In this document: positions 3,056 to 16,301 of the stretch, in pieces
Numbering within the stretch: the first letter of the stretch is position 1
Layout of the letters: the number at the start of each line of letters is the position of its first letter
Assembly (NCBI GenBank): GCA_000153145.1
Contig: CH672415.1
Coordinates: 1,178,750 to 1,242,749 of the forward strand
Direction of reading: 5' to 3'
Length of the DNA: 64,000 nt
From: a marine actinobacterium PHSC20C1
Lineage (GTDB): Bacteria > Actinomycetota > Actinomycetes > Actinomycetales > Microbacteriaceae
Position numbers and translations under genes: made by a program
The notes under the pieces: model-generated
Told to the model about the DNA's origin: nothing
The model's database searches: none
What the model saw: only the letters and a program-made list of their open reading frames with translations

Positions 3056-3094
3056 CTGTACACCCCCCGGGACTTGAACCCGGAACCCACTGAT
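3056..3094 (-). repeat. 3' fragment of a tRNA-Lys-like gene (putative att site, left)
   Basis: On the minus strand this 39-base segment spells the 3' side of the anticodon stem, the variable region, the whole T arm and the 3' acceptor strand of a tRNA. It matches 16226-16264, the 3' end of the intact tRNA-Lys, at 35 of 39 positions. Two of the four mismatches are a compensatory swap in the T stem (C-G for G-C). No 5' tRNA half is present upstream, so it cannot be a functional tRNA. In tRNA-targeted integration this is the signature of the displaced tRNA 3' end at the distal attachment site. Confidence 0.8.
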
Positions 3095-3105
3095 AGAGGG
3101 TCTTT

Positions 3106-3139
3106 GCATAATGTGTCCCCTATATCCGGGTAATTATGC
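3106..3139. repeat. Inverted repeat next to the tRNA fragment
   Basis: GCATAAT (3106-3112) and ATTATGC (3133-3139) flank a 20-base spacer just inside the left end of the island. It is AT-richer than its surroundings. Recombination or excision factor binding is possible but unproven. The rest of 3140-3335 shows nothing I can name. Confidence 0.3.
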
Positions 3140-3335
3140 CCCTGACCAGGAATTTCTTCGCGAGGCTCCCAGCCTGTGTGGCCCGCTCGTTCCCGGTCGG
3201 TCCTGCGAAAACCCTGGGCCTCCCAATAACAAACAGCAGCAAAGGTGCAGTTGATCCGGCTGTCTGATCGCCTGGGCGGCTATGCGGCTCACCGCGGACT
3301 CCCACGGTATTCCAGACGCCTGTTCGGAGCCGAAC

Positions 3336-4115
3336 TCAGTCAAACTCAGCAACCTCCACTACGAATGTTCCCCCAGCAATAGAGAGAGTCAGAATGCCGC
3401 CACTGGCTAGCGCGGACATCTCATCGGGAGTGATCGTGATCACGGTCGCCGGTGTCGGGCCGTAGAAGCTCAGAGCTTTGGAGACTGTGCGAACGATCGC
3501 ACGGCGGATATGTGCACATATAAGAGGAGTGTTTGACATACTCTTCCAGTGCGCGGCATCTGGTGAATACCAACCCCTTTGGCGCAAACACGCCCGTTTC
3601 CGGAGGCGTGATTTCCGCGGCCGTAAACCGACCTGGTTGGATGCGCCGGCGCCGATGCTGGTGTTGGCTGACTGATCGATCGCGGGGTTGAGTTCGGACC
3701 TACCAACTTTCGAAACCTCGGAATCCGGCAGGTGCATAAAGCTCGCCACCAGCTCACCTAAGCGCTGCGCATCAGCTCGGGACTTACCGGTCCTCGACCA
3801 GGAGGGGAATTTTGACGTAAGGGTGATGTCCTTGGTGATGACCTCGACAGTGGGAGCCTTGTCGCCGAGGTCAGGTCTGCGCACGTAACGGATGTCTTCG
3901 ACGCCAATCTCGGTATCAATCGCACCCACGCGCCGCAGAGAGTCCTGTCTGGTGATGAGGACGCGACGGCCGGTGATCACAACCCAGCCGGCATCGAGGA
4001 CGGGCAGGTTCCATTGGGAGCAGGATGCTTCCCCCATTGCGAGCACGCGCTCACCGAACCCGAGGCGAAGGGGCAGTATGCGCCCAAGTTCGCTAGGGAC
4101 TTCACCCTCGAACAC
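3336..4115 (-). CDS. Hypothetical protein with PH-like N-terminal region
   Basis: This 259-residue frame starts at a GTG with no clear ribosome site. Residues about 10-130 have the alternating strands and closing helix of a bacterial PH-like domain (WVVITGRRVLITR, then EVITKDITLTSKF, then a helix ending ELVASFMHL). The remainder is basic and low in recognisable features. The start is doubtful: a neighbouring frame (4133-4339) would fuse to it in frame if the run of eight G at 4151-4158 differed by one base. It lies at the distal end of the island, downstream of the sugar operon and on the same strand. Function unknown; it may be decaying. Confidence 0.45.
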   Translation of the reverse strand: MFEGEVPSELGRILPLRLGFGERVLAMGEASCSQWNLPVLDAGWVVITGRRVLITRQDSLRRVGAIDTEIGVEDIRYVRRPDLGDKAPTVEVITKDITLTSKFPSWSRTGKSRADAQRLGELVASFMHLPDSEVSKVGRSELNPAIDQSANTSIGAGASNQVGLRPRKSRLRKRACLRQRGWYSPDAAHWKSMSNTPLICAHIRRAIVRTVSKALSFYGPTPATVITITPDEMSALASGGILTLSIAGGTFVVEVAEFD

Positions 4116-4132
4116 GAGGATCGACGGCAGAA

Positions 4133-4339
4133 CTAGCGGTTTGGGCTCTTGGGGGGGGCTTGTCCTCGGATGGAGACCAGTGCCCGCTGCAACTGCCGCA
4201 CTAAGTCAGTCGCGTCCTTCGCGGCCCGGGACGTACTGCCAATCTTGATAGTTCTCTTTCCGGGAAGTTCGCTGACGCGCTCCGAGACGCGGGCACAGCC
4301 GCGACGACGGCGACAATAATGCCTGAAGCGGACTGACAT
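4133..4339 (-). pseudogene. Probable out-of-frame N-terminal part of the PH-like protein
   Basis: A 68-residue minus-strand frame ends 18 bases before the next ORF. Its last part (TDLVRQLQRALVSIRGQAPP) runs into a homopolymer of eight C on this strand (4151-4158). One extra C continues the reading as QEPKPLVLPSILVFEGEV, straight into the PH-like protein. This suggests a single gene split by a homopolymer indel. The first 25 residues are Arg/Cys-rich and unlikely to be real. Nothing else can be supported in 4340-4482. Confidence 0.35.
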
Positions 4340-4482
4340 TACGGCAGCTGCGGGCTAGCAGAATTGATCAATTCCGCTGTCCGAGAACTCCGCAGCAGCC
4401 CAGTTCGATGCCCATTGTCTCGTCGGACCAAACGGTGGCGATTGGTCGGGTTGGGTCTGAGATCGTCCAGATCCCGGATGTG

Positions 4483-5490
4483 TCACCCTTGGTTACTGAA
4501 AGCCGAATCAAACGAGGCGGCTGGAGGAGTCCAGAGAAGCTTGCGCACGAACGCCAACGCCTCAGGGGCACCATGGAGTCGGTCCATTCCGGCGTCCTCC
4601 CACTCGATGGAGATGGGGCCGGCATACCCAATAGTGTTGAGAGCTCGAAAACTAGCTTCCCAATCGACGCTGCCGTGGCCCGCCGAGACAAAGTCCCACG
4701 AGCGCCGAGGGTCGCCCCAAGGAAGGTGGGATGAGAGCCGGCCACGGCGTCCATCCACGGGGTTCATCGTCGTGTCTTTGCAATCCACATGATAAATACG
4801 ATCGGCAAAGTGGAGAATAAATGCAGCAGGATCGATGTCTTGCCACATCATGTGGGACGGATCCCAGTTCAAACCAAACGCGGGGCGGTTCCCAATCGCT
4901 TCGAGTGTTTGTTCGGTCGTGTACCAGTCATAGGCAATCTCACTGGGGTGCACTTCGAGCGCAAACCGAACGCCGTTGTCATCAAAAACATCCATGATGG
5001 GATTCCAGCGGTCAGCAAAATCTTGGTAGCCCGCTTCAATGACAGATGCGGGAACCGGCGGAAACATCGCAATATACGGCCAAATTTTTGAACCGGTAAA
5101 ACCCAGGACAGTGTCAACCCCAAATTTACGAGCCACGATACCCGTCAGCTTAAGTTCCTGAGCGGCGCGTTGACGAACCCCCTCGGCTTCACCATCGCCC
5201 CAAACCTTCGAGCCTACGATGGCCTGATGGCGAAAATCTATGGGATCATCGCACACGGCTTGACCCTTGAGGTGATTAGAAATTGCATAAAGCTTCAGAT
5301 TGTAACGATCGAGGATGTCGAGACGTTCCTGAACGTATGAGTCATCTTCGGCGGCACGCCACACGTCAAGGTGCTCTCCAGAGCAGGCAATTTCCAGTCC
5401 GTCATAACCCCACCCGCTGGCATACTTAGCGACCTGTTCAAGCGGAAGATCGGCCCACTGTCCGGTAAAAAGGGTGATTGGTCTCGTCAT
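4483..5490 (-). CDS. TIM-barrel sugar isomerase/epimerase-family enzyme (LgdB1-type candidate)
   Basis: A 335-residue member of the xylose-isomerase-like TIM barrel family. The metal ligands expected for the fold are visible as E179 (ALEVHPSE), D210 and H213 (NWDPSH), H234 (YHVDCKD) and E296 (SIEWED). The start is firm, with AGAGGAG eight bases upstream. It is the last gene of the island sugar operon, 27 bases after an oxidoreductase gene. Enzymes of this family in such clusters isomerise, epimerise, dehydrate or eliminate 3-keto-sugars. In the levoglucosan pathway (LgdA, LgdB1, LgdB2, LgdC) two such barrels do beta-elimination and hydration. That assignment is inference; the family placement is secure. 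Confidence 0.85.
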   Translation of the reverse strand: MTRPITLFTGQWADLPLEQVAKYASGWGYDGLEIACSGEHLDVWRAAEDDSYVQERLDILDRYNLKLYAISNHLKGQAVCDDPIDFRHQAIVGSKVWGDGEAEGVRQRAAQELKLTGIVARKFGVDTVLGFTGSKIWPYIAMFPPVPASVIEAGYQDFADRWNPIMDVFDDNGVRFALEVHPSEIAYDWYTTEQTLEAIGNRPAFGLNWDPSHMMWQDIDPAAFILHFADRIYHVDCKDTTMNPVDGRRGRLSSHLPWGDPRRSWDFVSAGHGSVDWEASFRALNTIGYAGPISIEWEDAGMDRLHGAPEALAFVRKLLWTPPAASFDSAFSNQG

Positions 5491-5517
5491 TGGTGCTCCT
5501 CTGAACTCACTGCGAAT

Positions 5518-15699: not shown

Positions 15700-15724
15700 A
15701 CCATCCGGTTCCCGCGGGTCCCTC

Positions 15725-16060
15725 TTGCCGTTCAGACCGGGGCTCACTGGCCCTGAAGAGCTGCTTTTTCAAACAGCGCATGGGACGCCGGTCGCGATGG
15801 GCAATCTGCGCCGAGCCTGGCGTTCTGTGCGCGGTGACCTTCCGGGGCTAGAGAACCTGAAGCCTCACGCACTCCGCGCCACCATGGCTTCGGCCCTCGT
15901 CTATAGCGTTGGTGCTGAAAAGGCGGCGCGGCAGCTAGGCCACACAGGCACCGGCACCATCTTTGCGCACTACCTACACCGGCGGGCCTATGTGGACGAC
16001 GTCGACTTGGGTGCGATGGAACTCCCGCGGCCCACTGAGCAAAGCAGTATCAGTGCATAA
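15725..16060 (+). pseudogene. Tyrosine recombinase (integrase), C-terminal remnant
   Basis: About 110 residues remain of a phage-type integrase that would normally be about 350-450. They hold the C-terminal catalytic boxes: HALR (His-x-x-Arg), QLGHTGTGT and a Tyr within AHYLHR as the nucleophile. The N-terminal DNA-binding part and the first catalytic Arg are missing. The frame is open only back to 15686, inside sequence that reads as the ABM gene on the other strand. It ends 165 bases before the tRNA-Lys 3' end, the usual place for the integrase of a tRNA-integrated element. It should be inactive, so the island is probably fixed. Confidence 0.85.
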
Positions 16061-16077
16061 TTTCCCAGCCGAGCAAC

Positions 16078-16108
16078 AGCCCCACTTCTTCCGAGAGGTG
16101 GGCTTTTT
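16078..16108 (+). terminator. Terminator after the recombinase remnant
   Basis: AGCCCCAC (16078-16085) pairs with GTGGGCT (16098-16104) with one bulged base, and a run of five T follows. This is a typical intrinsic terminator 20 bases after the recombinase stop. It supports the remnant having been a real expressed gene. Confidence 0.7.
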
Positions 16109-16197
16109 GCTGCGCCGGCAGCACACGAGCCAAACGGCAAACATGCACCAAAAGTGCAGTTGGGGGCAGTCGGGACTCTCGGAGCTGGTCACCGATA

Positions 16198-16223
16198 CAA
16201 AAAAGGCCCGGTTTCCCGGGCCT
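16198..16223 (-). terminator. tRNA-Lys terminator
   Basis: AGGCCCGG (16204-16211) and CCGGGCCT (16216-16223) pair around a four-base loop and are followed on the minus strand by a run of T (A on plus at 16199-16204). It begins six bases beyond the tRNA 3' end. It lies inside the putative island boundary, so it may be element-derived. Confidence 0.85.
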
Positions 16224-16225
16224 CA

Positions 16226-16264
16226 CTGTGCACCTCCCCGGACTTGAACCGGGAACCCACTGAT
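16226..16264 (-). repeat. Putative att site (right) within tRNA-Lys 3' end
   Basis: This is the partner of the 39-base segment at 3056-3094. The longest exact matches are GGACTTGAACC and GGAACCCACTGAT, in the T arm and the anticodon-stem/variable region. Together they delimit about 13.2 kb. Confidence 0.75.
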
Positions 16265-16301
16265 TAAGAGTCAGTTGCTCTGCCAATTGAGCTAGAGGTG
16301 C
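16229..16301 (-). tRNA. tRNA-Lys (anticodon CTT)
   Basis: A 73-nt cloverleaf on the minus strand. The acceptor stem GCACCTC/GAGGTGC, a D arm with AGCTCAATTGGCAGAGC, the anticodon stem ACTGA/TCAGT with loop CTCTTAA, and the T arm CCCGG-TTCAAGT-CCGGG are all intact. The anticodon CTT (16266-16268 on plus as AAG) reads AAG codons. CCA is not encoded. Its 3' end is the attachment point of the adjoining island. Confidence 0.96.

Follow-up and report, generated by a model that had tools for sequence, protein, structure and literature searches.

Genomic islands targeted to tRNA genes and carrying tyrosine integrases form a general class, marked by a duplication of the tRNA 3' end, an integrase near the tRNA and vacant sites in related genomes. 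We consider here an element of this appearance in the marine actinobacterium PHSC20C1 (family Microbacteriaceae), which occupies positions 3056 to 16301 of a 64,000-nucleotide stretch of contig CH672415.1 (this whole stretch is referred to as the window) and carries a probable operon for the use of levoglucosan (1,6-anhydroglucose), a sugar made when plants burn. The described system closest to the cargo is the levoglucosan dehydrogenase (LGDH) pathway of Bacillus smithii and Paenarthrobacter LG01 and LG02, with the gene set lgdA-lgdB1-lgdB2-lgdC. As far as the accessible parts of the two reports go, B. smithii enzymes were used to reconstitute the route that turns levoglucosan into glucose (PMC7676230), the pathway genes rise in levoglucosan-grown Paenarthrobacter LG01 (PMC10066097), and ROK regulators and parts of ATP-binding cassette (ABC) transporters are reported neighbours of lgdA (PMC10066097, PMC7676230).

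Like the LGDH pathway as these sources outline it, the window has two Gfo/Idh/MocA enzymes, two TIM-barrel enzymes (PF01261) and an ABC importer. Unlike the operons of B. smithii and Paenarthrobacter LG01 and LG02, it has its operon on a tRNA-Lys island, its importer swapped for a distant set, a relic of the native importer and an added epoxide-hydrolase-like gene. The comparison with tRNA-targeted islands is similarly two-sided: the tRNA 3'-end duplication, the integrase relic near the tRNA and the vacant sites in relatives are all found, whereas the integrase is truncated, transfer genes are not recognised and the cargo is almost wholly one catabolic operon. Taken jointly, a tRNA-Lys island, a foreign origin of its cargo and an lgd identity of that cargo make up a reading that we hold to be very probably correct.

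The duplicated tRNA end and the vacant sites

The intact tRNA-Lys(CTT), the sole tRNA found in the window, is encoded on the minus strand (16228-16301). Its 3' end recurs at 3056-3094, also on the minus strand, where 35 of 39 positions are identical to 16226-16264 in the same orientation (local alignment score 59). The original prediction had singled out this imperfect 39-nt copy, and two controls bear it out by ruling out a chance match: 60 shuffled tRNAs aligned with 14 kb score 28 at most, and the relatives' own tRNAs aligned with their downstream stretches score 17-22 in 16 of 19 cases, the other three (48, 70 and 82) being separate islands. A direct repeat of the tRNA 3' end is thereby present at both borders, of which 3056-3094 would be the distal attachment-site copy. 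The SDR gene ends 57 bp to the left of this copy, an arrangement that resembles the empty sites described below.

Beside the tRNA, a 111-codon open reading frame (ORF) on the plus strand (15725-16060) matches the C-terminal half only of Phage_integrase (PF00589, positions 92-169, E 6.4e-6), with scores of 26.5 and 24.2 bits that fall below the curated cut-off of 27.1. It stops 167 bp short of the tRNA 3' end and fits the C-terminal tyrosine-recombinase remnant that had been noticed there. Among the 14 island ORFs scanned against Pfam (E 0.001) no excision or transfer family appears, and the integrase relic is the only mobility gene recognised. Since the 5' part of the integrase is lost and no transfer genes are recognised, the island is now a fixed remnant.

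What does the site look like in relatives? We compared 19 same-genus genomes around bcp (the stretch of G008 is only 8.1 kb long). All 19 have the tRNA-Lys(CTT), which adjoins bcp in 18 of them, the exception being G013, with about 2.7 kb between the two. In three close relatives (G001, G011 and G020, with the SDR match split into two pieces in G011) the SDR gene, tRNA-Lys and bcp follow one another with no island in between, which is the empty site that had been predicted. A second tRNA end is absent in 16 of the 19, including all eight of the window's bcp clade. The remaining three have one of 35 bp at 9.75 kb (G013), of 41 bp at 3.8 kb (G024) and of 24 bp at 5.2 kb (G021), each with an integrase or its relic no more than about 1.5 kb from the tRNA, and because of these integrases and second tRNA ends we regard tRNA-Lys(CTT) as a recurrent insertion site.

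The small islands at this tRNA (loci L043 in G013, L048 in G021 and L052 in G024) carry cargo that differs from the window's. A Pfam scan of 10 of their 15 listed ORFs gives a second integrase in G013, a DUF6414 protein in G021 and a DNA methylase in G024; the remaining scanned ORFs, apart from the G013 integrase by the tRNA, have no Pfam match. In G019 an integrase lies about 6 kb from the tRNA, with no clear repeat.

The next question is how the four mismatches between the tRNA and its copy arose. Simple decay is rejected, as nine of the 19 relatives, including G012 and G005, have the 37-nt tRNA part of 3056-3094 unchanged at the 3' end of their intact tRNA-Lys; the version at the window's intact tRNA is common to two others, G010 and G016. 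In a tree of bcp (471 columns) the window is sister to G012 with support 96/96. The mismatches are better read as host versus element versions, with the displaced copy probably the host's own tRNA end. Because relatives, including the sister in the bcp tree, have this very sequence as their tRNA end, the 3' half now in place apparently came from the element. The block shared by tRNA and copy stops within the anticodon stem, at its 3' strand, and the simplest reading, probable and not proven, is a crossover near the anticodon loop that displaced the host 3' end while the element supplied the present one.

The operon, its identity and its origin

The enzyme that names the pathway is LgdA (7028-8218, minus strand), which matches PDB entry 6a3f with 640 bits over 389 of 396 residues and is assigned by this match and by its tree. 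The entry is named "Putative dehydrogenase" in the PDB; we take it to be the LGDH of Pseudarthrobacter, in agreement with the LgdA of LG01, which differs from it at 12 of 388 residues (about 97% identity). For LG01 and the Pseudarthrobacter LGDH the accessible part of the published account gives 96.7% identity (PMC10066097). The LgdA of the window is 71% identical to that of levoglucosan-grown Paenarthrobacter LG01, so that by homology it would be a levoglucosan dehydrogenase. Beside lgdA are the proposed LgdB1, a putative 3-keto-levoglucosan beta-eliminase of TIM-barrel type (13111-13932, minus, PF01261), and the proposed LgdC, a putative glucose 3-dehydrogenase placed by family match among the Gfo/Idh/MocA oxidoreductases (5518-6648, minus). 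They are 62% and 54% identical to their homologues in locus L120, taken as the LG01 locus by strain name and with gene names inferred from length and family. A second TIM-barrel enzyme, sugar isomerase-like (TIM1; 4483-5490, minus, PF01261), matches PDB 2zds (513 bits) and 8ro4, "2-hydroxy-3-keto-glucal hydratase" (E 4e-40); it fits LgdB2 or LgdB3 and is proposed as the hydratase. A literature search for "2-hydroxy-3-keto-glucal" hydratase returned nothing. The catabolic frames of the operon are open. An orthologous ABC importer is missing from the set, since the native one is broken and a distant one is present. Judged by homology, the cargo is probably a levoglucosan operon.

In the pathway that we propose, the ROK-family regulator (14131-15336, plus, PF00480; a presumed repressor) would control import through the ABC transporter. 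LgdA would oxidise levoglucosan at C3, LgdB1 would open the 1,6-anhydro ring via beta-elimination, the TIM-barrel hydratase would add water, and LgdC would reduce 3-ketoglucose to glucose. The regulator is divergent from the minus-strand operon, as expected from the earlier description of the cargo as one operon plus its regulator; four more features lie beyond these, namely an ABM-domain gene, a 259-residue ORF, an ATPase/permease relic and an alpha/beta hydrolase.

Where did the operon come from? A close LgdA occurs in one of 27 genomes of the genus, the window's own. Eight of the 26 others have no match at E 1e-60 and the best matches elsewhere are 38-44% identical, so that the presence of the operon in relatives, which would have spoken against acquisition, was looked for and not found. 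In an even sample of 396 genomes of the order, scanned for LgdA, permease and hydrolase at strict E-values with the best four to six candidates per genome scored, nine (again counting the window's own) have an LgdA at E 1e-130 or better. For named loci the comparisons use the 80 lgd loci kept by our scan, and the nearest LgdA among them, 97% identical in amino acids, is that of Alpinimonas psychrophila. The other operon proteins are 94% (TIM1), 93% (ROK), 88% (LgdB1), 83% (LgdC) and 74% (ABM) identical to their Alpinimonas counterparts; on the right flank, a histidine-kinase-like protein (named from sequence) stands at 74% and bcp at 68%. In the LgdA tree the window groups with Alpinimonas, with a value of 86 in the Shimodaira-Hasegawa-like approximate likelihood ratio test (SH-aLRT), within a clade of seven (97) that excludes L100, the locus of an uncultured actinobacterium discussed below. 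The phylogenetic expectation is therefore upheld: LgdA sides with Alpinimonas at 97% though the two flanking proteins reach only 74% and 68%.

The locus of Alpinimonas psychrophila DSM 23737 (L096) shares the order ABM / ROK / LgdB1 / binding protein / LgdA / ... / LgdC / TIM1 with the window, and differs in keeping the native importer and having no hydrolase. Its 16.2 kb contain no integrase match and no repeat of the nearby tRNA end. We rejected the Alpinimonas operon as a tRNA-Lys island of its own: the tRNA there is a tRNA-Lys(TTT) about 1.45 kb off (12312-12388 of L096), in the opposite relative orientation and with no end repeat in the locus, of which one side only is visible because the contig begins inside it.

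Combining these observations, we propose that an element which had a tyrosine integrase, and would itself have brought the operon in, entered tRNA-Lys(CTT) at the anticodon-stem/3' end. It would have supplied the working 3' half of the tRNA and moved the host 3' end 13.2 kb away, to 3056-3094. A later loss of the 5' part of the integrase would leave the levoglucosan operon as nearly all that remains. Several points weigh against this account. Because two island-free genomes, G010 and G016, have the same tRNA-end version as the window's intact tRNA, the donation of that end is only probable, and the sister relation to G012 comes from the single bcp gene and its 471 columns. Beside the tRNA of the other 16 relatives the SDR gene was not found (E below 1e-15), which makes the left neighbour, and hence the left border, variable. 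The SH-aLRT value joining the window's LgdA to that of Alpinimonas is just 86, and the ABM protein, at 74%, is no closer to Alpinimonas than a flanking gene is. In composition the island is nearly host-like: its GC content of 57.3% lies within the 57.1-61.4% of 20 background stretches (one of them lower), so an offset is seen only in a tetranucleotide distance above that of 19 of the 20, and the foreign origin gains weak support from it. Finally, the integrase relic directly abuts the operon, which could therefore have entered an older island later.

The last point leads to a possible two-step origin, in which an older, unrelated element decayed at tRNA-Lys and the lgd operon came in afterwards by illegitimate or homologous recombination, destroying the integrase 5' part. 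The homology to the Alpinimonas lgd locus runs to 15733 and the integrase relic starts within about 10 bp of that end; besides the relic no mobility gene is recognised, and the tRNA received other cargo in three of 19 relatives. Yet G012, the bcp-tree sister, has no second tRNA end in 17 kb, so that both steps would fall after the split from G012, and a single insertion followed by deletions is simpler. We give this course of events a minority chance. Far less credible, to the point that we hardly entertain it, is an ancestral operon lost in all other members of the genus with the tRNA copy incidental. The near-host composition would suit such a loss; the vacant sites, the absence of the operon from 26 other genomes, the displaced tRNA version found in the sister genome, and the greater nearness to Alpinimonas of most operon proteins than of the flanking-gene proteins all speak against it. 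The rival explanations, including one taken up with the importer, alter single steps and are compatible with an acquired lgd island at tRNA-Lys.

Importer exchange and the lgd-associated hydrolase

Along the DNA, the window matches Alpinimonas at 4476-6686 (81%), 6685-6716 (32 bp), 6717-8357 (88%) and 13030-15733 (83%), and has no Alpinimonas match over 8358-13029. Between these homology breaks lies a minus-strand cassette that takes the position of the one native gene for a binding protein, which is gone from the operon. It consists of a sugar-binding protein (11921-13078, PF13407), an ABC ATPase (10324-11877, PF00005 in two stretches) and a permease (9357-10331, PF02653), which form the replacing, type-B importer, and an epoxide-hydrolase-like alpha/beta hydrolase (8398-9279, PF00561), all on the minus strand. 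The importer proteins are 40-46% identical to those of Alpinimonas. The cassette proteins are 78-95% identical to those of L100 (uncultured actinobacterium metagenome-assembled genome UFOp-RH-23may17-203), with DNA homology continuous over 7035-13519; the ATPase is 80% identical to L100 and 40% to Alpinimonas, the binding protein 81% versus 40%.

The original importer is still visible as a relic, a 124-codon frame between LgdA and LgdC (6648-7022, minus) identified by alignment to the Alpinimonas genes. It joins the N-terminus of the ATPase, a 32-bp internal ATPase piece and the C-terminal tail of the permease, with about 312 and 1795 bp missing. In the permease tree, built from 43 selected loci and, like that of LgdA, a quick one with SH-aLRT values only, the window pairs with L100 (SH-aLRT 99), apart from the Alpinimonas-type permeases. 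The LgdA and permease trees disagree, and the importer and the catabolic genes therefore have different histories.

By these alignments and trees the operon reads as a mosaic of at least two sources, and for this reason the claim of the original prediction that it was acquired horizontally as one unit holds in its first half, through the vacant sites, the lack of LgdA in the genus and the phylogeny, and is not borne out in its second. L100 shares the order LgdB1 / binding protein / ATPase / permease / hydrolase / LgdA with the window; it differs in having no ATPase-relic match between LgdA and LgdC and an LgdA outside the seven-row clade of the window and Alpinimonas. We picture an Alpinimonas-type backbone whose importer would have been replaced in place by another set of binding protein, ATPase and permease together with the epoxide-hydrolase-like gene, the native ATPase-permease pair being deleted down to its relic. 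In the lgd operons of L109, L110 and L112 (Cryobacterium and Herbiconiux) there are two genes for binding proteins, and the importer is a distant relative of the window cassette.

The exchange raises the question of whether the operon still serves levoglucosan. If importer and hydrolase were exchanged together, it might now serve another anhydrosugar or a 3-keto-glycoside, as could be argued from the importer parts, which share only 33-50% identity with their counterparts in the remaining named lgd loci (L100, L101, L109, L110 and L112 excepted), from the one cassette that they share with the hydrolase, and from a hydrolase family not among the known lgd steps. Against this stand the 97% identity of LgdA to its Alpinimonas counterpart and the open catabolic frames; moreover, since none of the 395 other genomes of the order matched the permease at E 1e-75 (five best candidates per genome), there is no sign of the window's importer in another pathway. 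We think a change of substrate unlikely and retain levoglucosan as the probable one.

The hydrolase itself resembles the soluble epoxide hydrolase of PDB 7ac0. It occurs in eight of the 80 named lgd loci (L100, L101, L109, L110, L112, L164, L165 and L173), in three different positions. Among the 396 order genomes, close relatives (E 1e-110 or better, best six candidates scored) turn up in two, that of the window and G253. The latter belongs to the same family, shares 93% identity with a named Cryobacterium along 12.5 kb, and has its hydrolase about 0.5 kb beyond the lgd operon. Loci of Cryobacterium and Herbiconiux have hydrolases with 85-89% identity to the window's, against 67-76% for their LgdA, so that the hydrolase is the better conserved of the two. 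In the searched samples the epoxide-hydrolase-like enzyme is found only with lgd operons. One speculative reading, to which we assign a low probability, is that the hydrolase and the type-B importer are a mobile add-on which moves between lgd operons and widens or changes the usable anhydrosugar. If so, the substrate might, for instance, be a different pyrolysis sugar, one that must be opened by hydrolysis ahead of the LgdA route or alongside it, and the window operon would have been caught after the exchange, its old importer still visible.

The remaining features lie around the operon. In the divergent promoter region between regulator and operon (13933-14130), the block TAACGTAATGTT..TTTTCGACA(A/G)AAGA is found in four of the five aligned rows long enough to include it (window, L096, L097 and L099); L103 deviates at a few bases and L098 is too short to reach the block. 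An 8-6-8 palindrome at 14074-14095 was considered as a conserved operator and rejected, being matched in one of 22 sequences, the window's alone. The ABM-domain protein (15367-15699, minus, PF03992) is a recurrent lgd neighbour, with a homologue in 40 of the 80 named loci. At the other end of the island, the unassigned ORF of 259 residues (3336-4115, minus) has no Pfam hit and no function was found for it; its first 137 or so residues are 54% like part of a longer protein of G631, and it is present in its own genome and in three of 298 others of a family sample. Far outside the island, the composition profile shows a strong AT skew at 44001-45000 (0.40), 49001-50000 (0.30) and 53001-55000 (about -0.3).

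Probable levoglucosan genes on mobile DNA

We turn to further signs of mobility around lgd genes. Of 72,556 plasmid records, 28 have an LgdA relative at E 1e-100 or better, 14 with 60-80% identity and 13 predicted to be conjugative. An integrase search around the other named lgd loci (six queries, E 1e-4) gives one in 80, L110 of Cryobacterium ruanii (E 2e-6). There, at 13332-14227 of the Sr36 locus, a frame-broken tyrosine integrase ends 75 bp from a tRNA-Phe, downstream of the lgd genes and oriented as the one in the window. No repeat of the tRNA-Phe end is present in the 14 kb to the left (score 22; shuffles up to 29), and a 51-bp, 85% copy of that end lies on another contig of the draft genome. 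On these alignments L110 may be a second lgd island, which we offer as a lead.

Islands at tRNA genes and lgd operons are both known kinds; the new parts are their combination, the importer swap and the hydrolase. Within the titles and abstract openings that our literature search covered (few subscription papers among them), no lgd island, importer exchange or hydrolase of this kind is described and nothing links levoglucosan to Microbacteriaceae; in the accessible part of PMC12169178 levoglucosan appears in the references only.

The island links a fire-derived sugar to mobile DNA and, together with the lgdA relatives on 28 plasmid records, indicates that the pathway has passed between bacteria. 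It also preserves steps that are usually erased, namely the displaced host tRNA end, the donor version of the tRNA, and the importer swap with its relic, and because these intermediates are preserved the succession of events is open to test. The lgd-associated hydrolase, in turn, is a concrete enzyme that lends itself to a bench assay.

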